Part shown: one piece after another, positions 14,707-48,505 of the stretch
How the letters are laid out: each line of letters starts with the position of its first letter
How positions within the stretch are numbered: position 1 is the first letter of the stretch
Source of the DNA: Natrarchaeobius oligotrophus
Lineage (GTDB): Archaea > Halobacteriota > Halobacteria > Halobacteriales > Natrialbaceae
DNA: 64,000 bases
Assembly (NCBI RefSeq): GCF_003841465.1
Contig: NZ_REFZ01000012.1
Location: 1-64,000, forward strand
Direction of reading: 5' to 3'
The notes under the pieces: model-generated
What the model saw: the letters and a program-made list of their open reading frames with translations, nothing else
The model's database searches: none
What the model was told of the DNA's origin: nothing
Program-made: the position numbers and the translations under genes

Positions 14707-15930
14707 ATGACCAGCGCCGAGGACCTCGCCGACCGCGTTCGCGAGGGCGAGCTTCGAATTCACGAACTCGAAGAGCACGTCGACCACGACACCGCCGCCG
14801 CGGCCCGGCGGCTGCTCGTCGAGCGCGAGACGGGGGCCGACCTCGAGACGATCGGCGACTACGCCTTCCCGGCCGAGCGCGCGGAGCCGAACGTCGAGAA
14901 CATGATCGGCGCGGCCCAGGTGCCCCTGGGCGTCGTCGGTCCGGTCGCAGTCTCGGGCGGCGCGGCCGACGGCGAACACTACCTGCCGCTCGCCACGACC
15001 GAGGGCGCGTTGCTCGCGTCGGTCAACCGCGGCCTCTCCGTTATCGACGCCGCGGGAGGCGCGGACGCCCGAGTGACGAAAACGGGGATGACTCGCGCGC
15101 CGGTGTTCCGGGTCGACGGCGTCGTCGAGGCCGCCGAGACGGTCGAGTGGGTCGGGGAGAACGTCGACGCCCTGGCCGAGGCCGCCGAGTCGACGACGAG
15201 CCACGGCGAGTTACTCGGCGTCGAACCCTACGTGGTCGGCGACGCGGTCTACCTGCGCTTTGCCTACGACACCAAGGACGCGATGGGGATGAACATGGCC
15301 ACCATCGCGACGGGCGAGGCCTGCTCGGTCGTCGAGCGCGAGACGCCGGCCTCCCTCGTCGCGCTCTCGGGGAATCTCTGTTCGGACAAGAAACCCGCCG
15401 CCGTCAACGCCGTCGAGGGACGCGGACGGTCGGTGACCGCCGACGTCGTGATCCCCGGCGAAATCGTCGAAAAACGCCTCCACACGACTCCGGAGGCGAT
15501 CGCGGAGGCGAACACGCGAAAGAACCTGATCGGCAGCGCGAAAGCCGGTAGCCTCGGCTTCAACGCCCACGCCGCCAACGTGGTCGGCGCTGCCTTCCTC
15601 GCGACCGGCCAGGACGAAGCCCAGGTCGTCGAGGGGGCGAACGCGATCACGACGATGGACGTCCGCGACTCCGACGACCCGTCCGATCTGTACGCCTCGA
15701 TCTCGCTGGCCTCGCTCGAGGTCGGGACCGTCGGCGGCGGCACGAAGCTGCCGACGCAGGCTGAAGCGCTCGAGATTCTCGGCGTTCGCGGCGGCGGCGA
15801 TCCGCCGGGGTCGAACGCCGACGCGCTGGCGGAGATCGTCGCGGTCGGCGCGCTCGCCGGCGAACTCTCGCTGCTGGCGGCGCTCGCGTCGCGCCACCTC
15901 GCGAGCGCACACGAGGACCTCGGGCGGTGA
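14707..15930 (+). CDS. hmgA: 3-hydroxy-3-methylglutaryl-CoA reductase (class I)
   Basis: NADPH-dependent reduction of HMG-CoA to mevalonate, the committed step of archaeal isoprenoid lipid synthesis and the target of statins in haloarchaea. The 407-aa soluble enzyme shows the catalytic Glu region NVENMIGAAQVPLGVVGP, the dinucleotide-binding DAMGMNMAT, catalytic Lys in LCSDKKPAAVN, Asp in ATGQDEAQVVEG, GTVGGGTKLPTQ, and the C-terminal His in HLASAHEDLG. No membrane anchor is present, as expected for archaea. Start at 14707 follows an AT-richer leader. Confidence 0.97.
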   Translation: MTSAEDLADRVREGELRIHELEEHVDHDTAAAARRLLVERETGADLETIGDYAFPAERAEPNVENMIGAAQVPLGVVGPVAVSGGAADGEHYLPLATTEGALLASVNRGLSVIDAAGGADARVTKTGMTRAPVFRVDGVVEAAETVEWVGENVDALAEAAESTTSHGELLGVEPYVVGDAVYLRFAYDTKDAMGMNMATIATGEACSVVERETPASLVALSGNLCSDKKPAAVNAVEGRGRSVTADVVIPGEIVEKRLHTTPEAIAEANTRKNLIGSAKAGSLGFNAHAANVVGAAFLATGQDEAQVVEGANAITTMDVRDSDDPSDLYASISLASLEVGTVGGGTKLPTQAEALEILGVRGGGDPPGSNADALAEIVAVGALAGELSLLAALASRHLASAHEDLGR

Positions 15931-16272
15931 TCGACGACGCGCCGGAAGACCGCGAACCGGATAGTAGCCGCTGAGAGTCGGTGTACGCCCGATCGCACCG
16001 CTATCGTGCGATCGGCGTGTGAACGGGTTCGGTCGGTACGATAACTCGAGCGGGGGCCGGCGAGTTCCGGGGACCGAGGAATGCCAGTCGGGGGCGATTC
16101 GTCGGACTACTCCCGGAAAGGAGATCGTATCGATCTCGGAGACACACCGTACGAGTGTCACGCGCCGATTACTGTAACGATAAACGTGTTTAATTTCCCA
16201 CAGTAATCGAGTTCGGCTTGCTCTCTCAGGTGACAGCTATACGAACGCACAGGTGTTATTTCCGACTCGCCC
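15931..16272. other. Intergenic region between hmgA and the GNAT gene
   Basis: No gene is seen. The last third is AT-rich and carries the 10-bp inverted repeat at 16166-16209 around a TATA-like element. The first part has GC-rich palindromic text that could end hmgA transcription, but no T-run is obvious. Confidence 0.5.
16166..16209 (+). promoter_or_regulatory. 10-bp perfect inverted repeat framing a TATA-like box
   Basis: CGATTACTGT at 16166-16175 is matched exactly by ACAGTAATCG at 16200-16209. The 24-bp centre contains GTTTAATTT, a TATA-like element about 80 bp before the GNAT start codon. Two half-sites bracketing a TATA box suit a dimeric repressor, or the RNA could form a hairpin. Confidence 0.5.
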
Positions 16273-17394
16273 GTGAGTCAATATATCTCTCAGACGCCGA
16301 AGCAGTACGGAATTCGGCACTTTCGAGCGGGTGATAGAGGGCAGTTACTCGCGTTACACGACGAGGTATTCGGACACGGCTGGGGGCCCGAGTGGTTCGA
16401 GTGGAAGTACGAGCGAAACCCGTACGTCGATCACGTTTCGATCATCGTGGCGACGAGAGACGACCGAATCGTCGGCTGTCGGGCGTTTTTCGCACTCGAG
16501 ATGCGAGTTGGCGACGTAACGCGCGTCGGGTTACAGCCGTGCGATACGATGGTCCACCCCGACCACCGGCGACAGGGGCTCTTTAGCCGGATGAACGAAC
16601 GCGCGCTCGAGTACTACGCGGATCGTCGTCCCGACTTCTTCTTCAATTTCCCCAACGAACACTCGAAGCGGGGAAATCTCAAACACGGCTGGCAGGAGGT
16701 TCGAACCGTACCGATGTACTATCGGTTGCACAACCCCGCTCCGCTCGTCGAGCGGTGGATCGAAACCGGTCGTTCGAAAGCGGTCGCTACCGAGTACGTG
16801 GACGTGACGGAGGCCGTGTCCGCGATCGCGACCGTACTCGCGCGATCCGCCTCGCAGTCCGAGCGCTGGCTCGCGAACTCGAGTGCGGGCGACGTTCGGA
16901 TCGAACGGTACGAAACGCCGCCCGACGAACTGCTGGCGTCGGTACACGATCGGCGGTCCGACAGCATCCACGCGAATCGGTCGGCCGAATTCTATCGCTG
17001 GCGACTCGACAATCCGCTGTACGAGTACGGCACCTACGTCGCGAGACGCGATGGAACCGCGGTCGCGGCGCTCGTCGTATCGTGCGTCGACGGTTGCGTC
17101 CGAATCGTCGAGGTCGAGCCGCGCGAGTTCGACGTCAGCCGAACGGCGATCGAGCACCTCCTCAGGAGCGTGGTCGCCGAGTATTCGGACAGGAGTTACG
17201 TCACGGCGTTCGGAATCGGAGTGCCGAATCCAGTCCGAAATCGGTTCTATCCCGACACCCGGCTGCCGCTGTCGCTTTTCGCCAACCCGACGTCGCGAAC
17301 GCTGTTGGCACGCGACATCGGTGACGCGACCGTCGTTGAGGAAAGCTCGCCGTCGGACTGGCGGTTCACCCGACTCGATCTAGACACGACGTGA
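16273..17394 (+). CDS. GNAT-fold N-acyltransferase, surface-glycan-cluster type
   Basis: A 373-aa protein with an N-terminal GNAT domain: FRAGDRGQLLALHDEVFG, then PCDTMVHPDHRRQGLFSRMNERAL with the R-x-x-G-x acetyl-CoA loop (HRRQGLF), then a second half resembling a degenerate repeat. Such long GNAT proteins recur in archaeal glycan biosynthesis clusters. A GTG start at 16273 is used; no better in-frame ATG is nearby. It converges with an ATP-grasp gene 154 bp away. The transferred group is unknown; see the paired locus at 40-44 kb. Confidence 0.75.
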   Translation: MSQYISQTPKQYGIRHFRAGDRGQLLALHDEVFGHGWGPEWFEWKYERNPYVDHVSIIVATRDDRIVGCRAFFALEMRVGDVTRVGLQPCDTMVHPDHRRQGLFSRMNERALEYYADRRPDFFFNFPNEHSKRGNLKHGWQEVRTVPMYYRLHNPAPLVERWIETGRSKAVATEYVDVTEAVSAIATVLARSASQSERWLANSSAGDVRIERYETPPDELLASVHDRRSDSIHANRSAEFYRWRLDNPLYEYGTYVARRDGTAVAALVVSCVDGCVRIVEVEPREFDVSRTAIEHLLRSVVAEYSDRSYVTAFGIGVPNPVRNRFYPDTRLPLSLFANPTSRTLLARDIGDATVVEESSPSDWRFTRLDLDTT

Positions 17395-17548: not shown

Positions 17549-18820
17549 TCAGGGCTCGACCGTCCGTCGTTCGTACTGCTCGGGGCGGTGGTCTCTCCCC
17601 CCTCCCGACTCGGCCTCGCGGGACCGAAGCTCGCCGATCAGGTTCCGGCTGTCCCGGAGAAACGGCCCGGGATCGTCCGGGTCGAGGTAATCGAAGCGCG
17701 GATGGCGAACCAGCGACGCGGCGACGTCGATCACGGTTTTCACACGGGACGGCCGCTCGACGGCCGGGTACGTTTCGCTGAAAACGCTGTGGAGGTGGAG
17801 AAGTTCCCCCCGGAGCAGGTGACCGCCGATGCCGACTTCGAAGGTCGGCTCTCGAGGGATCGAGTAGCCGGTGGCCTGCTGCCAGTACAGGTACGGAAAG
17901 TCGACGCCCGCCTGGACGGTGAACGGAAGCGACGTCCAAAAGCGCGGGTTGACTTCCATCAGTTTGAACTCGCCGGTGGTCGGATCGCGGAGGAACTCCA
18001 CCATCGCCAGTCCGTGCCACTCGAGTTCGTCCAGCAGGCGGCGACCCGCGGCGTCCAGCTCCGGGATGTCGACCGATTCGCGGTAGGCGCTCGGCCCGCC
18101 GGCGTACTTCCAGGCACGTCGTTGTCGGTGCTGGAACGTCGCGACCGCCTCCCCGTCGCGGTACAGCGCGAAAAACGCGTACTCGTCGGAGGTGGGGACG
18201 TACTCCTGGACGAGCGGGGCGTGTCCGAAGTCGTCGACGAGGGCGTCTCGGTCGGGTTCGATCCCCGCGGGAACGTACCGAGCGGATTGCTCCTGGGGGC
18301 GGAAGTCCGAAAAGTCGCTCCCGTACTCCGGCGCGTGAACCGTATAGCGGGGTTTGACGACCAGGTCGTCGGTCCAGTCGGACCAGTCATCGAGGGCCGT
18401 CGTCTCCGGAATCGAGACGTTCGCCGCCCGCGCAGCGTCGAACAGTCGAACGCGATCCTGGACGGAGCCGAGCGTCGGTATGGACGGCCATACGGTGGCC
18501 ACGTGGTCGGTTAGGGCGTCCGTATTCCGCGCCAGCACGTAGACGTCGGCCTCGCGAACGGGGATGACCGTACAGACGTCGTCCCGCCGGGCGAGCCCAC
18601 AGAGCGCCTCCTCGTACGCACCCAACTCGCTCGCGGGATCGGGAACCCCGTGAGATTCGGTACAGAATTTGGATTCGAAACCGGGTGGAGACGGTTGCTC
18701 GGAGATCGCGATCGTTCGAATACCCCGTTTTCCCAGCGAACGCATGCAAGCGACGCTACTCGCCGCATCGATCGCCGGAACGACGACGTTTTGCGCTGAT
18801 TCCTGCAGATCGCCGCACAT
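17549..18820 (-). CDS. ATP-grasp carboxylate-amine ligase-like protein (locus 1)
   Basis: A 423-aa protein. The N-terminal pre-ATP-grasp part (VVPAIDAASSVACMRSLGKR) resembles a nucleotide-binding-like fold. The ATP-grasp core has VVKPRYTVHAP (Lys), PLVQEYVPTSDEYAF, and the Mg-binding LMEVNPRFWTSLPF. Ligases of this type form amide bonds between a carboxylate and an amine through an acyl-phosphate. WHGLAMVEFLRDPTTGEFKLMEVNP parallels the ATP-grasp at 42.9 kb, so they are paralogues. Promoter elements (TATA at 18846-18854, palindrome at 18828-18841) imply a nearly leaderless transcript. Confidence 0.75.
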   Translation of the reverse strand: MCGDLQESAQNVVVPAIDAASSVACMRSLGKRGIRTIAISEQPSPPGFESKFCTESHGVPDPASELGAYEEALCGLARRDDVCTVIPVREADVYVLARNTDALTDHVATVWPSIPTLGSVQDRVRLFDAARAANVSIPETTALDDWSDWTDDLVVKPRYTVHAPEYGSDFSDFRPQEQSARYVPAGIEPDRDALVDDFGHAPLVQEYVPTSDEYAFFALYRDGEAVATFQHRQRRAWKYAGGPSAYRESVDIPELDAAGRRLLDELEWHGLAMVEFLRDPTTGEFKLMEVNPRFWTSLPFTVQAGVDFPYLYWQQATGYSIPREPTFEVGIGGHLLRGELLHLHSVFSETYPAVERPSRVKTVIDVAASLVRHPRFDYLDPDDPGPFLRDSRNLIGELRSREAESGGGRDHRPEQYERRTVEP

Positions 18821-39133: not shown

Positions 39134-40006
39134 ATGCTGCCGCCCGTCGCGAATCGGTTCGTCGCCGGCGAGACGCCGGCCGAAGCGATCGAGTACGCTC
39201 GTCGCCGGTCCGGCGACGGCCCAAACGCGATGCTCAACCGGCTCGGCTCGCACCACCGGGACCTCTCGAGCGTGCGCGCCGACGCCGACGAGTACGTCAT
39301 GCTCGTCGAGGAGCTCGCACGTCTCGACGGCGATCCCGCGGTCTCGGTCAAGCCGACGCAGCTCGGCCTCGAGATCGGCGAGCCGCTCTTTCGAACTTCG
39401 CTCGAGCACATCTGTGAACGCGCAGCCGGCCGGGACGTCGCGGTCTGGCTCGACATGGAAGAACACTGGACCGTCGAGCCGACGCTCGAGGTCGCGGTCG
39501 ACCTCGCGCGCGAGTACGGCGGCGTCGGCGTCTGCATCCAGGCCGACCTGAAGCGAAGCCGGGCGGACCTGCGGAGACTGGCGGACGAACCCGTCCGCGT
39601 TCGCCTCGTCAAAGGCGGCGCGTACGATCGTCCCGACCCCATCGCGTACACGGATCCCGACCGTCGCGACCGGGCGTACCGAGCCCTGCTGTCGGAGGCG
39701 TTCGATCGCCTGGACGGCGGAATCGCGGTCGCGACGCACGACCCGGCGATGCTCGAGCACGCGGTGGAACTGGGCGACCGCCACGAGACGGCGTTCGAGA
39801 TTCAGATGCTGATGGGCGTTCGACCGACGGCACAGCGGACGCTCGCCGACGAGTACGAGGTCCGGGAGTTCGTCCCCTACGGCCCACGCTGGAAGCGGTG
39901 GGCGTTCAACCGCGCCCGACGTAACCTCGGCTTCGCCGCTCGAGCCGTCGGCGAGACGCTGGTACCGACGAACCGGGCGGCGTCGGGAATCGCTGCCCGG
40001 CGGTGA
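39134..40006 (+). CDS. Proline dehydrogenase
   Basis: A 290-aa FAD enzyme with the PutA-type TIM barrel, oxidising proline to pyrroline-5-carboxylate. AVSVKPTQLGLE opens the barrel, VAVWLDMEEHWTVEPTLEV is the metal-free Asp-Met-Glu block, RVRLVKGGAYDRPDPI the family's RLVKGAY motif, IAVATHDPAML the next strand, and FEIQMLMGVRPTAQ then VPYGPRWKRWAFNRARRN the C-terminal substrate block. The P5C dehydrogenase partner is not adjacent. Confidence 0.9.
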   Translation: MLPPVANRFVAGETPAEAIEYARRRSGDGPNAMLNRLGSHHRDLSSVRADADEYVMLVEELARLDGDPAVSVKPTQLGLEIGEPLFRTSLEHICERAAGRDVAVWLDMEEHWTVEPTLEVAVDLAREYGGVGVCIQADLKRSRADLRRLADEPVRVRLVKGGAYDRPDPIAYTDPDRRDRAYRALLSEAFDRLDGGIAVATHDPAMLEHAVELGDRHETAFEIQMLMGVRPTAQRTLADEYEVREFVPYGPRWKRWAFNRARRNLGFAARAVGETLVPTNRAASGIAARR

Positions 40007-40281: not shown

Positions 40282-41298
40282 TTACGACTCGAGCCGACGC
40301 GAGATCGACCGGCCGGCGTTCAACACCGGCAGCGCGGGCGAGGGGAAACCCCGTTCGTAAACCAGCAGCGGGATCGTCTCCGCGCCGAAGTACTCCTTGA
40401 ACCGGAAGACGCCGTTTCTGAAATCCGGCGGCGATCCCCTGAGTTCGTACGTCTCGTACCCCTCGTCGATCCCCCACTTGATGGCGTGTTCGTGGAGGAG
40501 CTCGGGCGCGTGATACTCGAAGTGATCCTCCGTGACGGCCGTAAAGAGGTGCTGAAGCGTCGACTGCTCCTCGTCGCGGAGGTACATGTACATTCCTCGC
40601 GTCTCACCGTTCACCCGCAGCGAAAACACGGTTACGCGGTCGCTAAACTCCCGCAGTTCGTCGAAAAACGACCGCGGGAGCGTCGGGAGACCGACCCGAT
40701 CGGTCACCGTCGCGTAATCCGCGTAGAACGTCTCGAGGGTCCCGTCGGTGAGCGACTCCTCGACGACCTCGAAGTCGTACTCGTGGCCCCGCCGGATTCC
40801 GCGGCGTCGTTCGCCGTCCATCTCCGCGAACAGTTCGTCCCAGCCCAGAGAGAGGTCGAGCGTGAATCGACACGAGAGGATCGTCGGCCGGTACCCCCGC
40901 TGCTCGAGGAGCTCGTGGTAGCGGACGTAGTTCTGGTCGTACGTCCGAAGCTCGTTGAACAGGATCCGTCCGGTACAGAGATCACCGACAGCGTCGAGGA
41001 GCAACTCGAGTGAGGTCTCCTCGTCGGTCATGGCGATCGGTCCGCCGTATCCCGGTCTGATCGAACTCAGACGATTGATCCGGCCGAGTTCGGTCACGAA
41101 GTTGGGAAACGCCGCGATCGGATTGCCGCTCTTTTCGACGAGCAGGTGTCTGGGTTCGTGTGAAAGCGCCTCCTCGACGGCGCGAAGCCACTCGTATCGG
41201 TGGTAGACGCAGCTGAGATCGGACTGGTCTACGACGTTGTTCCACTGGTTCCGGTTCACGTCCTGGATGCTCTCTACGTGACGAACGTCGGGCCCCAT
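40282..41298 (-). CDS. FemAB/GNAT-fold peptidyl- or acyl-transferase
   Basis: A 338-aa protein with tandem GNAT-like halves, as in FemX/FemAB lipid II aminoacyltransferases and archaeal BioF2-like proteins: SCVYHRYEWLRAVEEAL at the start, MDGERRRGIRRGHEYDFEV as the substrate-binding link, and VNGETRGMYMYLRDEEQSTL then HAIKWGIDEGYETYELRGS in the second half. FemAB enzymes add amino acids from aminoacyl-tRNA to amines; here there is no peptidoglycan, so a glycan or lipid acceptor is more likely. It lies downstream of the toroid and ATP-grasp genes. Confidence 0.75.
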   Translation of the reverse strand: MGPDVRHVESIQDVNRNQWNNVVDQSDLSCVYHRYEWLRAVEEALSHEPRHLLVEKSGNPIAAFPNFVTELGRINRLSSIRPGYGGPIAMTDEETSLELLLDAVGDLCTGRILFNELRTYDQNYVRYHELLEQRGYRPTILSCRFTLDLSLGWDELFAEMDGERRRGIRRGHEYDFEVVEESLTDGTLETFYADYATVTDRVGLPTLPRSFFDELREFSDRVTVFSLRVNGETRGMYMYLRDEEQSTLQHLFTAVTEDHFEYHAPELLHEHAIKWGIDEGYETYELRGSPPDFRNGVFRFKEYFGAETIPLLVYERGFPSPALPVLNAGRSISRRLES

Positions 41299-41627
41299 CT
41301 ACACCTCGGTTCGATATCGCCGTACATAATTACGAACTGGCTTCGAGAGGTACAACGAACGTACCGGACAGAAAGCGGCCGAACACCGCCCGGCCCAGGT
41401 GCGTTCCGGCGCATCGAATGACGTTCGCTCGGAAACCGAGCGGCACTCTCGAGCAACCGGTCTCGAGGGACTCGACGAATGGACAGCGACGGACGACTCG
41501 AGCAACCTGATCGAACGCCGGCTCGAGCGACCACACTCGGACGGCCGATTCGCGTCCCAGCGCCGGACGATCGGCCTCCAGTGGGCGTCCACCGAAGCTC
41601 GCGGCGAATCGCCGCGGCGGCTCGCGC
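41299..41627. other. Gap between the toroid gene and the FemAB-like gene
   Basis: No gene is seen. An AT-rich stretch at 41315-41335 (CGTACATAATTACG) gives a TATA-like element on the minus strand, so the FemAB-like gene can have its own promoter. Confidence 0.5.
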
Positions 41628-42866
41628 TCACTCCGTGGACGGAACTCGCGGGCGAGCGGCCGCCTCTCCCGACGCGCCGAGCCGCCGGCAGCGCAGATAC
41701 CGCGAGAGCGCGTAGGACATCCACGCCTGGCACCACCGCATCAGCGTGAACCGCTTCGTGTACCACCGGCGCTGCTGGTAGTAAAACTGTCCGCCGCCCG
41801 CGTAGAGTGCGTCCCTCGTCCACTCGATGATTCGTCGAGCGAAGGCGAGATCACCCAGCTCGGCGAAGACGACGATCCCCTGGGCGGCGGCGTGGACGTC
41901 ACGCGGGTACGCGCTCGACTCGTCCCACCGCGGCGCGCCGTCGTCGTCGAACAGTCGCTCGCGGTAGAACGTCGCAGCGCGCTCGAGCGTCGGTTCGAAC
42001 CGATCGTCTCCGGTGACGTCCCGGTGTCGCAGGAACGATTCGACGATGAAGCCGTTGTGGAAGTTGTCCATCGAGAGGTGCGACGCCGTCGGCGGATCGG
42101 CGTACATCCAGCCACCCGAAGCCGTCTGCTTGCTGGCCACGTACTCGAGGATGGCCGTCGCCGCTTCGCGCAACCGTCGGTCGCCAAACCGATCGAACAG
42201 ATCGAGCAGCAATCGCGCGCCCAGCGCGTTCGCGTTGAGCGTGTACGCCTCGCGGTCGGTCGACCCGTCCCTCGAGGCGGTGTAGTTGATCCGCGCGCCC
42301 TCGTCGACCTCCTCGTACGCGAGGTCCTCGAAGAGGAAGTCGCTGGCAGTGCGCGCGACGTCCGCGTACCGCGGCTCCGAGAGGGCGTCGCTTCCCCGGA
42401 GCAGCGCCCTGACCGCGTACGACGTCGAGACCACGCCCGACACCTCCCCCGGCGTCGACGCGCCGTCGCTCGAGAGGTCCTGCAGGGGATGGCGATGACC
42501 GCCGCCACCGAAGCCGGCACACCAGTCGTTTTGGGCCTCGAGCAGCCACTCGAGTAGCGATCGGCCCTCCCGCGCGTACCGATCCTCGCCCGATCGCTCG
42601 TACAGGTCGAGGGTGGCGAGGGCGAACAGCGCGGCTCCCTTGTAGTTGCGGCGCTGCTCGACGAGAAACAGCGGTCGGAGGTTGACGGGAGCCCGTTTGA
42701 TCGTCTCCTGGACGGCGAGGTTGACGAGTTTGCTCTCGATCGGCAGCGAACGGACGAACGCGCTGCTGAGTCCGTCGGCGTAGTCCCAGCCGGTGTACTC
42801 GCGCTCGCTCGCGTACGCGAGGGTACTCCGACGGAGTCGATCGATCGATTCGTCGTCCAGAGTCAT
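41628..42866 (-). CDS. Alpha/alpha-toroid (six-hairpin) glycan-modifying-like protein
   Basis: A 412-aa soluble helical protein. Repeating helix pairs (ALFALATLDLYERSGEDRYA, LLEWLLEAQNDWCAGFGG, VVSTSYAVRALLRGSDAL, ANALGARLLLDLFDRFGD, ILEYVASKQTASGGWMYADP, HLSMDNFHNGFIVESFLRH) form an alpha/alpha barrel as in glycoside hydrolases, polysaccharide lyases and C5-epimerases. Database labels such as antibiotic transporter permease are not supported, because there are no membrane helices. ATGA overlap with the ATP-grasp gene shows co-expression. The catalytic role is not readable. Confidence 0.65.
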   Translation of the reverse strand: MTLDDESIDRLRRSTLAYASEREYTGWDYADGLSSAFVRSLPIESKLVNLAVQETIKRAPVNLRPLFLVEQRRNYKGAALFALATLDLYERSGEDRYAREGRSLLEWLLEAQNDWCAGFGGGGHRHPLQDLSSDGASTPGEVSGVVSTSYAVRALLRGSDALSEPRYADVARTASDFLFEDLAYEEVDEGARINYTASRDGSTDREAYTLNANALGARLLLDLFDRFGDRRLREAATAILEYVASKQTASGGWMYADPPTASHLSMDNFHNGFIVESFLRHRDVTGDDRFEPTLERAATFYRERLFDDDGAPRWDESSAYPRDVHAAAQGIVVFAELGDLAFARRIIEWTRDALYAGGGQFYYQQRRWYTKRFTLMRWCQAWMSYALSRYLRCRRLGASGEAAARPRVPSTE

Positions 42867-44074
42867 CCGTGCGTTCCACCCCCCGAGGGAGCGTTCACGC
42901 GCGAGTCTCCGGTCTCGATCGCCGGGAGCTTCTCGACGACGGCGGGCGGGGGCGTCAACCAGGCCCCGACGTCGCGCGGATCGACGTCCCACGCGACGCC
43001 GGGGTTGCAGACGGTCGCGAGGTACTCCGGCAGCGAATCACGGTCTCGATTCTCGAGCCGGAACTTCAGCTCCCGCAGGGGAAAGACCATCTCGCGGCCG
43101 GATTCGGGCGAGCCGACGGGGACGTCCACCTCGAGATCGAGCCGGTCGGCGACGATCGTCGAGGCGAACCGGTGGCCGAACCTGCTCGCGAGCGCGTAGG
43201 ACGCCCAGAACTTGGGATTGATCTCCATCAGAACGAACGTGCCGTCGGGCCGGCGTTTGAACTCCACCAGCGCGACTCCGTGCCAGCCGACCTCCCGAAG
43301 CAACCGTGTCGCGTGGCGCTGGAGCCGCGGCTGGTCACACAGACGGAGGTGGGTACCGCTTCCGCCGTGACGGGGAACGGAGCGAAGCTCCTCGTGGACG
43401 CACGCGAGTGCGACCTCGTTGTCGAAACAGAGGAGCCCACAGCCGTAGGTCGAGCGAGAGCCGTCGACGTACTCCTGAACCAGCACGTCGTTCTCCGGGG
43501 CGATGGCCGCGATGCGGTCGTACGCAGACCAGAACGCCGCGGGATCGTCGACCGGTGCCGTCGTCGCCGCGCCGTTTTCCTTGCGCGCCTTGAGAAACAC
43601 CGGAAACGGCAGGTGGTCGCCGACGTCGGGTCGACCGTCGGCCTCGAGGTCGGCGACCAGTCCGGTGTAGTCCGTCGGGACGTCGATGTCGAGTTCTCGG
43701 GCCCGCTGGAGGGTCGCGCGTTTGTCGACCGCCACCCGAAACGACGGCGACGGCGGGAGACACAGCGAGACGTCGGCCGGAACGGCCGACCGAATCGAGT
43801 CGACGCTGGCCATCGATTCGTAGCCGACCGGGAGGACGACCCCCGGACGACACGAACGGATCACCTCGAGCACGGCGTCGGCGTGGGCCGGATCGTCCGG
43901 CGGAGGCACGACGGCGGTGTAATCACAGTACGTCGAACGCAACAGCCTGCTGTGGCGCATCGTTCCGGCTCCGACGATGGTCGCCTCGAGGTCCTCGGTG
44001 AGTTCCCTCGCGATCACGAGGGACGTATCGTAATCGCCGTCGAGCACCAGCACCGTCGGCGGCTCCGGGTCCAT
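42863..44074 (-). CDS. ATP-grasp carboxylate-amine ligase-like protein (locus 2)
   Basis: A 403-aa ligase. VLVLDGDYDTSLVIARELTE starts the pre-ATP-grasp fold. The ATP-grasp core includes PFPVFLKARKENGAATTA, DVLVQEYVDGSRSTYGCG and VLMEINPKFWASYALA (Mg ligands). WHGVALVEFKRRPDGTFVLMEINPKFW lines up with the protein at 17.5-18.8 kb, a paralogue. It is the first gene of a cluster with the toroid protein (4-bp overlap) and the FemAB-like gene. TATA box ATTTTATAC (minus strand) at 44104-44112, about 33 bp upstream. Confidence 0.78.
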   Translation of the reverse strand: MDPEPPTVLVLDGDYDTSLVIARELTEDLEATIVGAGTMRHSRLLRSTYCDYTAVVPPPDDPAHADAVLEVIRSCRPGVVLPVGYESMASVDSIRSAVPADVSLCLPPSPSFRVAVDKRATLQRARELDIDVPTDYTGLVADLEADGRPDVGDHLPFPVFLKARKENGAATTAPVDDPAAFWSAYDRIAAIAPENDVLVQEYVDGSRSTYGCGLLCFDNEVALACVHEELRSVPRHGGSGTHLRLCDQPRLQRHATRLLREVGWHGVALVEFKRRPDGTFVLMEINPKFWASYALASRFGHRFASTIVADRLDLEVDVPVGSPESGREMVFPLRELKFRLENRDRDSLPEYLATVCNPGVAWDVDPRDVGAWLTPPPAVVEKLPAIETGDSRVNAPSGGGTHG

Positions 44075-44103
44075 AGCGACGACGCCATCGACCGAACCTA
44101 AAA

Positions 44104-44112
44104 GTATAAAAT
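44104..44112 (-). promoter_or_regulatory. TATA box of the ATP-grasp/toroid operon
   Basis: ATTTTATAC on the minus strand, about 33 bp before the ATG at 44074; it is the only AT-rich element nearby. Confidence 0.6.
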
Positions 44113-45628: not shown

Positions 45629-47008
45629 ATGCTCGACCGGACCTACTTGCGAGAGAATCCCGACGAGGTACGCGACGCCCTCGAGAACCGGGGGGCGGAC
45701 GTCGACCTCGACGAAATTCTCGCGATCGACGAGCGGTGGCGGGAGCTGAAAGCCCGCGGCGACGAACTGCGCCACGAACGCAACCAGATCACCCAGCAGA
45801 TCGGCACGTACGTCGCCGAAGGAAACGAGGAAAAGCGCGAGCAAGCGATCGAGCAATCGCGGGAGCTCAAAGGCGAGATCGAGGAGGTCGAAGCCGAAGC
45901 GGACGACCTCCAGGAGGAGCTTCAGGAGCGACTGCTCGAGGTGCCCCAGGTACCCCACGAGAGCGTTCCTCTGGGGCTCGACGAGCGCCACAACGTCGAA
46001 GACCGGCGCTGGGGGTTCGACGACCTGCGCGAGCTTCCCGGCGAAGTCGTCCCCCACTACGAGCTCGGCGAGGAGATGGACATCATCGACGAGGAACGGG
46101 GCGCGAAGACGACCGGCGCGGGCTTTTACTTCCTCAAGGGCGATGGCGCGCGCCTCGAGCACGCCTTGATCCAGTTCATGATGGACGTCCACCGCGAGCA
46201 GGGCTACGTCGACCTCTTCCCGCCGGTTCCGGTCAAGAGCGCGTCCATGCGGGGCACCGGACAGCTGCCGAAGTTCGCCGACGACGCCTACCGCCTCGGC
46301 GACAGCAACGACGAGGACTACGACGACGAGGACCTCTGGCTCTGTCCCACGGCCGAGGTTCCCGTCACCAACATGTACGCGGGCGACATCCTCCTCGACG
46401 ACGACCTGCCGCTGAAACACCAGGCCTACACGCCGAACTTCCGCCGCGAGGCCGGCGAGCACGGCACCGAAACCCGCGGCATCGTCCGCGTCCACCAGTT
46501 CAACAAGGTCGAACTCGTCAACTTCGTTCGCCCCGAGGAGAGCTACGACCGCCTCGAGGGACTGCTCGACGAAGCCGAGGAAGTTCTCCGGCGACTCGGC
46601 CTTCCCTACCGTATCCTCGAACTCTGCACCGGCGACCTCACCTTCGCCTCCGCCAAGACGTACGACATCGAGGTCTGGGCCCCGGCAGACGACATGGACG
46701 ACGGTCCCGAGGAGGGCGGACGCTGGCTCGAGGTCTCTTCCGCCTCGAACTTCGAGGAGTTCCAGGCCCGCCGCGCCGGCCTGCGCTACCGACCCGAGCG
46801 CCACGAGTCCGCCGAGTACCTCCACACCCTGAACGCCTCCGGGCTCGCGCTCCCCCGGGTGATGGTCGCGATCCTCGAGTACTACCAGAACGAGGACGGC
46901 ACGGTGACGATCCCAGAGGCGCTACGGCCGTACATGGACGACCAGGAGCTCATCGAGGGCCACGAGAAGGTCGGCGAGAGCGCGCTGGGTGCCGGCAAGC
47001 GGGAGTAA
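45629..47008 (+). CDS. serS: Seryl-tRNA synthetase
   Basis: A 459-aa class II synthetase charging tRNA-Ser. It has an N-terminal tRNA-binding antiparallel coiled coil (residues about 25-110), then motif 1 region (HALIQFMMDVHREQGYVDLFPP), motif 2 (YTPNFRREAGEHGTETRGIVRVHQF) and motif 3 (NASGLALPRVMVAILEYYQN). Complete and of typical length. Its final 128 bp (46881-47008, TAA stop) are duplicated at 48506-48633, so the present 3' end may have been supplied by the inserted element. ATG at 45629 fits the family start (MLDRTYLREN). Confidence 0.97.
   Translation: MLDRTYLRENPDEVRDALENRGADVDLDEILAIDERWRELKARGDELRHERNQITQQIGTYVAEGNEEKREQAIEQSRELKGEIEEVEAEADDLQEELQERLLEVPQVPHESVPLGLDERHNVEDRRWGFDDLRELPGEVVPHYELGEEMDIIDEERGAKTTGAGFYFLKGDGARLEHALIQFMMDVHREQGYVDLFPPVPVKSASMRGTGQLPKFADDAYRLGDSNDEDYDDEDLWLCPTAEVPVTNMYAGDILLDDDLPLKHQAYTPNFRREAGEHGTETRGIVRVHQFNKVELVNFVRPEESYDRLEGLLDEAEEVLRRLGLPYRILELCTGDLTFASAKTYDIEVWAPADDMDDGPEEGGRWLEVSSASNFEEFQARRAGLRYRPERHESAEYLHTLNASGLALPRVMVAILEYYQNEDGTVTIPEALRPYMDDQELIEGHEKVGESALGAGKRE
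46881..47008 (+). repeat. 128-bp direct repeat, copy A (functional serS tail)
   Basis: Aligns without gaps to 48506-48633 at an offset of 1,625 bp. Four substitutions were counted by eye, at 46915, 46991, 46997 and 47007, the last changing the stop codon from TAA to TGA. About 8 of the next 11 bases after the stop also match. It starts sharply at ACTACCAG. Confidence 0.95.
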
Positions 47009-47628: not shown

Positions 47629-48423
47629 TTATGGGCTTCCGATATGACCAGGCGCGAATGATTCAACAGGCAATGGTCCTGTCGGATACGGTGGCTCATT
47701 GGTGGTAAGCGTATCAAACTCATTCCAGTCCGGATTTTTCACGCTTCCATCTCCCCAACGAGGTTCAATGGTTCTAAACCCACAGCGATCAGAAATACAT
47801 CCTCTATCAACATCCATGTTACCAACGTAATACCTTGGTCCGCTAAGCGCAATCCAGACACCCACAATAACCGCTGCTGATACCGTCACTGGCCAACTAA
47901 GCCCCGCTGCCCCTAGGAGCGCTGCTACTGCAGCGCTCGCAGCCGTTGATCCGATACCTTCAATTGATCTGGTAAACAGTACGTCAACCCCCTCTAATCT
48001 GTGATTGTAGTCCTCCCAATCACTATCACCGACATACCTGCATTGCGGACCCGTCGTCTGTATCACGTTGTAGTCCTCTATCACTTCCATTGACTGTGCA
48101 TTATGCTTGACAACATCGTCAATATCAACTTCATCTTTGTGGACATACACCTTCCCTTTAGAAAATCCCTCTTGGGTGGAACTATCATGACCAACAACGC
48201 GCGCGATTAAACTTTCATTTTCAAATTCGACTTCGAAGAGCTGCTCATTTTGGGACAGCTTCTTATCACCTTGAACCTCAACCTGCGATGAGCTTACTTC
48301 TTCAATCGATATCACTTCTGGAATGTCGTTATTTTCGCCATTACCAGCACTAGCCGCTGCGGGGAATGTACTACCTGCTACACCCATCGAAACAATACTC
48401 TTGAGCGCACTTCTTCTCTTCAT
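47629..48423 (-). CDS. Tat-type secreted protein with Gly/Ala-rich hydrophobic core, halocin-like architecture
   Basis: A 264-aa protein. The N-terminus MKRRSALKSIVSMGVAGS with the cleavage-like PAAASAG is a twin-arginine signal. Residues 30-125 are soluble and acidic. Residues 155-195 are a Gly/Ala-rich double hydrophobic hairpin (GIGSTAASAAVAALLGAAG, then VTVSAAVIVGVWIALSG), and Cys128, Cys209 and Cys214 could form disulfides. The C-terminus is Pro-rich. No homologue is recognised. ATG at 48423 follows an SD-like GGGAGAAGG, rare in this window; an upstream TTG is less likely. Confidence 0.75.
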   Translation of the reverse strand: MKRRSALKSIVSMGVAGSTFPAAASAGNGENNDIPEVISIEEVSSSQVEVQGDKKLSQNEQLFEVEFENESLIARVVGHDSSTQEGFSKGKVYVHKDEVDIDDVVKHNAQSMEVIEDYNVIQTTGPQCRYVGDSDWEDYNHRLEGVDVLFTRSIEGIGSTAASAAVAALLGAAGLSWPVTVSAAVIVGVWIALSGPRYYVGNMDVDRGCISDRCGFRTIEPRWGDGSVKNPDWNEFDTLTTNEPPYPTGPLPVESFAPGHIGSP

Positions 48424-48505
48424 GCCTTCTCCCAACAATATTCGAAATAAGTGAATAAATATTTCCGTTATAGTATTAGGTTTAATTTTATTTTTGTGTC
48501 TGGGA

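Follow-up and report, generated by a model that had tools for sequence, protein, structure and literature searches.

Four linked genes of Natrarchaeobius oligotrophus as a candidate module for amino-acid decoration of a haloarchaeal surface polysaccharide

What does a FemAB-like transferase act on in haloarchaea, and which genes does it act with? The question is raised by a stretch of 64,000 nucleotides of Natrarchaeobius oligotrophus (contig NZ_REFZ01000012.1, positions 1 to 64,000, assembly GCF_003841465.1), hereafter the window, which is part of contig C12 of the 4.6 Mb genome. An earlier note, made from the sequence of the window alone, had picked out three genes, for an ATP-grasp ligase, an alpha/alpha-toroid protein and a FemAB/GNAT-fold transferase, as a trio that could attach amino acids to a surface glycan or lipid; a fourth gene, at 39134-40006, was missed, and the membership given was thus incomplete. 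We propose, with a probability of about 0.6, that the four genes form a module for the decoration of a surface polysaccharide with amino acids, one that resembles the Wbp/VimE/VimA pathway of bacteria with further enzymes added. It probably acts on an exopolysaccharide or wall polymer that contains amino-uronic acid; S-layer N-glycans or glycolipids are less likely targets.

Gene identities and linkage across genomes

The transferase gene (40282-41298, minus strand) encodes a predicted FemX-like double-GNAT aminoacyltransferase of 338 amino acids, referred to here as FemAB, for which the Pfam families Acetyltransf_6, FemAB and FemAB_like all exceeded their cut-offs, Acetyltransf_6 being the strongest. 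The best NCBIfam match was TIGR03019 (E 8e-16), with 57.9 bits against an equivalog cut-off of 260, and by this score the protein is classed as a relative of TIGR03019, not an equivalog. In the alignment with FemX of the Protein Data Bank (PDB; E 7e-12), K301 of FemAB, which is invariant in 26 relatives, coincides with K305 of FemX, the lysine with the catalytic role (PMC12945691). The structure model was of moderate quality (pLDDT 74, pTM 0.62), its input alignment consisting mostly of a subfamily of 20% identity. In the Foldseek search with this model, the top 17 matches were aminoacyl-tRNA-dependent transferases or MprF-type domains, led by Sba18 and Sbb17, which act on the amino-sugar antibiotic streptothrisamine; these two, together with FemX, FemA and MprF, ranked above the acyl-CoA GNATs, all in fold alignments of 16-20% sequence identity. 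Both the sequence matches and the predicted double-GNAT fold are those of a FemX-type protein. Such proteins are no oddity in haloarchaea, whose polysaccharide loci commonly encode FemAB-like proteins.

The ATP-grasp gene (42863-44074, minus strand) encodes a putative carboxylate-amine ligase of 403 amino acids, similar to PRK12767 and CarB. It matched Pfam CPSase_L_D2 with 22.6 bits (cut-off 19.8) and a PRK12767-type model with E 1e-14, and, among PDB entries, the large chain of carbamoyl phosphate synthetase (E 8e-18) and 2pn1 (E 3.5e-15). E271, E284 and N286, the residues used as the test for ATP and metal ligands, are invariant in a subfamily alignment of ten sequences, and this conservation, together with the Pfam match, identifies the domain by sequence as that of an ATP-grasp ligase; several wall systems rely on such enzymes for their peptide bonds (PMC2922099). 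Upstream of its start lies the TATA-like stretch tttatactttta (44099-44110, minus strand), which may be the promoter of this gene.

The toroid gene (41628-42866, minus strand; 412 amino acids) follows directly, its ATG lying inside the ATP-grasp stop so that the two genes share the four bases ATGA (42863-42866). This overlap, with FemAB downstream, was correctly described before, and the assignment of the three proteins to the ATP-grasp, alpha/alpha-toroid and FemAB/GNAT families agrees with the open reading frames, the Pfam matches of the ATP-grasp and FemAB proteins and the fold of the toroid protein. Since FemAB starts 329 bp after the toroid stop, tight coupling is limited to the ATP-grasp and toroid genes.

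For the analysis of linkage we surveyed 125 genomes of the family, one per species. This ATP-grasp was found in 24 genomes, and in 21 of them the best match of FemAB lies within 15 kb; the assemblies of the three exceptions (G174, G221 and G248) are all fragmented or incomplete. Seven sampled genomes (the window genome, G177, G178, G179, G063, G112 and G214), belonging to three genera of Natrialbaceae, keep the order ATP-grasp, toroid, FemAB, and the ATP-grasp and FemAB genes are linked, in differing gene orders, in several genera. Because the order is kept in seven genomes of three genera and the linkage in 21 of 24, the arrangement is more than chance. The toroid gene is missing from most ATP-grasp/FemAB loci and is thereby ruled out as a core member: the conserved core is ATP-grasp plus FemAB, and the toroid is optional. 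The adjacency of ATP-grasp and toroid seen in the window recurs without an adjacent FemAB in Halostella-type genomes (G006, G035 and G046), in Halapricum and in a metagenome-assembled genome; in G006, FemAB is located on another contig, adjoining the fourth gene of the module. The trio of the earlier note, for which unlinked genes in conserved neighbourhoods had been named as the refutation, therefore survives as an ATP-grasp/FemAB pair and fails in part for the toroid.

The proline dehydrogenase paralogue and the toroid protein

The fourth gene (39134-40006, plus strand), convergent with FemAB, encodes a paralogue of proline dehydrogenase (ProDH), designated here ProDH'. It matched Pfam Pro_dh with 69.7 bits and the Thermus thermophilus ProDH with E 3e-55, and the catalytic lysine, K73, is kept and invariant. 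The 16 FemAB-adjacent copies, drawn from eight groups of which one (G006) belongs to another family, all fall into one clade supported at 100/100, apart from 19 other copies, among them the second copy of the window genome (C3:17713). Two motif changes accompany this separation. The second-last conserved arginine pair is N-R in all aligned FemAB-linked copies and R-R in all others, and VKGAY is replaced by VKGGAY or VRGGAY, with an extra glycine, in the aligned FemAB-linked copies and in no other copy read. In PutA, Arg555 and Arg556 pair with the proline carboxylate (PMC10651016); alignment with haloarchaeal and T. thermophilus ProDH suggests that N259 of ProDH' is the equivalent of Arg555. 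Because the carboxylate-binding Arg-Arg pair is N-R, we do not count ProDH' among the enzymes of proline catabolism; the tree and the motif together rule it out as a mere housekeeping gene. Of the 16 genomes of the family that carry ProDH' and the 16 that carry the corresponding FemAB clade, 15 have both (hypergeometric 3e-17, phylogeny ignored). In the FemAB tree the ProDH'-linked members likewise fall into one clade (98/96), with one loss of ProDH', in G218. By tree and motif, ProDH' is a dedicated paralogue travelling with the FemAB gene.

The toroid protein gave a confident AlphaFold2 model (mean pLDDT 92.7), for which the nearest folds were cellobiose 2-epimerase and relatives of N-acylglucosamine 2-epimerase (the AGE fold; Z 33, with 345 residues aligned to cellobiose 2-epimerase), with the GH76 mannanases close behind (Z 30). 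No Pfam family reached its cut-off, and thus no epimerase family was among those passing; a match to Pec_lyase, below cut-off and spanning about 50 residues, was rejected as a sign of pectate lyase. D267, H270, D323 and R377 are invariant and H325 near-invariant, and this set of conserved polar residues suggests an active enzyme. About 90 loci, with some 96 toroid genes between them, were read. Of the toroid genes that are not part of a module locus, almost all sit in polysaccharide clusters, most often beside a FemAB-like GNAT, a VimE-like deacetylase, DUF354, WecB and glycosyltransferases. On pHME505 of Haloferax mediterranei, for instance, the order is acyltransferase, DegT, Gfo/Idh, sugar dehydrogenase, wecB, deacetylase, toroid, GNAT and GNAT.

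A toroid paralogue of 56% identity is present elsewhere in the Natrarchaeobius genome (C6:1-14000), together with DUF354, a FemAB-like GNAT, a sulfatase, a GT4 glycosyltransferase and a flippase. Toroid proteins of many haloarchaeal records, such as that at 15088-16302 of a Halobaculum halobium plasmid (L083), are labelled 'antibiotic ABC transporter permease'; the predicted fold contradicts this label and suggests misnamed sugar enzymes.

Polysaccharide context, candidate pathway and alternatives

The surroundings of the core genes point to polysaccharide. The ATP-grasp/FemAB pair of seven Natronococcus genomes in the sample, and of genera g7, g2 and g59, is accompanied by a Polysacc_synt flippase, a protein of 13 transmembrane segments that belongs to no family and a polysaccharide lyase; in 11 loci a VimE-like deacetylase lies within 5 kb of the ATP-grasp gene. 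In Halapricum hydrolyticum (L091) the ATP-grasp/toroid pair stands directly after genes of a Wbp-type pathway for UDP-diacetamido-uronate, namely an acyltransferase, DegT aminotransferase, UDP-GlcNAc 3-dehydrogenase, NDP-sugar 6-dehydrogenase, GT2, WecB and a VimE-like gene. The Wbp-type genes, found at the module locus in Halapricum, are on a different contig in the window genome, C27, where the Wbp pathway families are accompanied by a VimE-like gene and by two additional ATP-grasps, of which one shares 44% identity with that of the module. The individual Wbp-type assignments in both genomes are below equivalog cut-offs, and the VimE model NF053580, matched with E 8e-18 in the window genome and with E 4.5e-19 in Halapricum, reached only 64-68 bits against a cut-off of 440. 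No AglB-type linkage, as would indicate an S-layer N-glycan, occurred in the loci read, in which no systematic search was made. The earlier idea of amino acids on a surface glycan gains support from the FemAB fold matches and from the exopolysaccharide clusters of other genera.

The genes of C27 form a compact Wbp-type polysaccharide cluster (C27:4001-24000) with the two ATP-grasps, DUF354, the VimE-like gene and a protein of 14 transmembrane segments. One regular neighbour of the ATP-grasp gene, family c141 (L167-L173), consists of proteins of about 620 amino acids with 13 predicted membrane segments and no Pfam family, and is perhaps the polymerase of the polysaccharide.

In Porphyromonas gingivalis and Tannerella forsythia, Wbp/VimE/VimA make seryl- or glycyl-amino-uronic sugars: WbpA, WbpB, WbpE and WbpD make the diacetamido-uronate, VimE is the presumed deacetylase of C2, and the choice between serine and glycine is set by VimA, which itself matches TIGR03019 (PMC7468200). 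Because VimA and the window FemAB both match TIGR03019, FemAB is proposed to aminoacylate a sugar amine. From sequence, structure prediction and gene neighbourhood, we infer the following reactions and substrates. Wbp-type enzymes encoded elsewhere in the genome would make UDP-2,3-diacetamido-uronic acid, one amine of which would be freed by the VimE-like deacetylase, and FemAB would then move an amino acid from aminoacyl-tRNA onto the freed amine. The ATP-grasp enzyme, using ATP, could form a further amide, either on the C6 carboxylate of the uronic acid or on the attached amino acid, and the toroid protein, with its fold like that of sugar 2-epimerases, might epimerise or trim the sugar in the lineages that carry it. 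As the least certain step, ProDH', having lost one of the two arginines that hold the carboxylate, would oxidise the carboxyl-blocked amino acid, before flippase and polymerase-like genes export and join the units. An enzyme no longer gripping a free carboxylate fits this scheme, because the product of FemAB would have a blocked carboxyl, and the altered substrate site of ProDH' points to an unexpected oxidation step. More specifically, and only tentatively, a neofunctionalised ProDH' may oxidise an amino acid, such as proline, after FemAB has fixed its carboxyl to the amino sugar, so that the polysaccharide gains an oxidised, possibly imine- or aldehyde-reactive, side group; if this doubtful proposal is true, an enzyme of ProDH fold modifies an amino acid on a glycan.

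Several observations weigh against a decoration module. The FemX, TIGR03019 and VimE model scores are all far below NCBI equivalog cut-offs, and in the lineage of the window the module is flanked by housekeeping genes, with no polysaccharide cluster there. Genera g7 and g2 lack ProDH' at their ATP-grasp/FemAB loci, and G218 lacks it too, so that it is not needed everywhere. In addition, a FemX-like double GNAT can be an N-acetyltransferase instead: HfsK of Caulobacter, whose closest solved relative is FemX and which works with the deacetylase HfsH, is so termed (PMC5362036). By analogy with the role proposed for HfsK, FemAB could be an N-acyltransferase that uses acyl-CoA to restore acyl groups on deacetylated amino sugars in an exopolysaccharide, with no amino acid involved. 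Acetyltransf_6 as the strongest Pfam match and the nearby VimE-like deacetylases also fit this alternative, but the evidence for HfsK is itself indirect, Foldseek puts aminoacyl-tRNA-dependent enzymes first and acyl-CoA GNATs well below, albeit with a model of moderate pLDDT 74, and an invariant K301 aligns with the catalytic Lys305 of FemX; we therefore consider re-acylation possible and rather improbable.

Less likely still is a role in building or capping a wall of polyamino acid, such as Natronococcus glutaminylglycan, in which the ATP-grasp enzyme would join amino acids by peptide bonds, as other ATP-grasp enzymes do in several walls (PMC2922099), and ProDH' would feed glutamate metabolism. 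The wall of Natronococcus occultus is a glycosylated gamma-linked polyglutamine (PMC4243693), and the ATP-grasp is present in 8 of 9 sampled Natronococcus species, with a linked FemAB in 7; but ATP-grasp/FemAB occurs also in other genera, in loci with flippase, lyase and sugar-nucleotide genes, and the loss of the proline-carboxylate arginine speaks against ordinary proline catabolism by ProDH'. We give an equally slight chance to the view that the genes are neighbours through shared ancestry of a chromosome region and act separately, ProDH' in ordinary proline catabolism and the toroid as a polysaccharide enzyme in trans. The restriction of the full trio to three genera, mostly with identical housekeeping flanks, the frequency of the toroid in polysaccharide clusters without this ATP-grasp, and the convergence of ProDH' with FemAB, by which the two are not co-transcribed, agree with such a view. 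However, the ATP-grasp/FemAB and FemAB/ProDH' links persist in other genera in different surroundings and orders, FemAB and ProDH' being adjacent even in the other family (G006), and ProDH' and its FemAB clade coincide in nearly all carriers.

Other genes of the window touch on this material. A seryl-tRNA synthetase (SerRS; 45629-47008, plus strand) is separated by one gene from the module; this holds for Natrarchaeobius, g4 and g9, whereas other carriers have it elsewhere. As it is single-copy in all 12 genomes tested and beside the module only in these three, a SerRS dedicated to FemAB is ruled out. A GNAT of the Acetyltransf_9 family (16273-17394, plus strand), of a family that in Halostella-type genomes heads an operon with ATP-grasp and toroid after it, is convergent with a second ATP-grasp (17549-18820, minus strand), of a family that recurs in polysaccharide clusters. 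The product of the gene at 47629-48438 (minus strand) is predicted to be exported and matches no family above its cut-off.

Comparison with known systems

Decoration of a surface polysaccharide with amino acids, known from bacteria, has apparently not yet been described for haloarchaea. We found no paper in the open literature on FemAB together with archaea or haloarchaea, which is weak evidence of novelty as most subscription journals lie outside it; archaea are not mentioned in the paper on the Vim pathway; and no paper found in the open literature names genes for the N-glycyl-glucosamine or glutaminylglycan bonds of haloarchaea. Polymers bearing amino acids were nevertheless reported decades ago, with N-glycyl-glucosamine in Halococcus and glutaminylglycan in Natronococcus. 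The genes described here offer a concrete candidate set for such polymers, tied to a bacterial pathway of partly established chemistry, and open the way to single-gene tests.

The likeness to Wbp/VimE/VimA lies in the UDP-diacetamido-uronate genes, the VimE-like deacetylase and the TIGR03019-type FemAB-like transferase in polysaccharide loci. The present system differs in being archaeal, in scores below equivalog cut-offs, in a linked ATP-grasp in place of the WbpS amidotransferase, and in the toroid and ProDH', which have no described counterpart there. With the FemABX group (FemX of Weissella viridescens, Sba18/Sbb17 and MprF) the window FemAB shares the predicted double-GNAT fold, the equivalent of Lys305 and the best structural matches, unlike them at an identity of only 16-20% and in organisms without peptidoglycan. 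ProDH' belongs, like PutA and ProDH, to the Pro_dh family with the catalytic lysine kept, whereas its first carboxylate-binding arginine is Asn and its VK(R)GGAY motif has the extra Gly.

In the Vibrio cholerae exopolysaccharide VPS, GulNAcA is amide-linked to glycine (PMC3901696) by an enzyme not identified there, and a vps-like cluster in Pseudoalteromonas that has wecB, wecC and genes of the VpsD and VpsF families also includes a toroid relative, which is about 30% identical. Closer in lineage is the wall of Halococcus morrhuae, for the bonds of which no biosynthetic gene is known. The H. morrhuae wall is likewise a haloarchaeal polysaccharide, with N-glycyl-glucosamine bridges and gulosaminuronic acid (PMC4187196). 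In Halococcus genomes (L112 and L162) polysaccharide clusters contain genes for a toroid and for FemAB-like proteins, the latter of the c1 subfamily and not of that found in the window.

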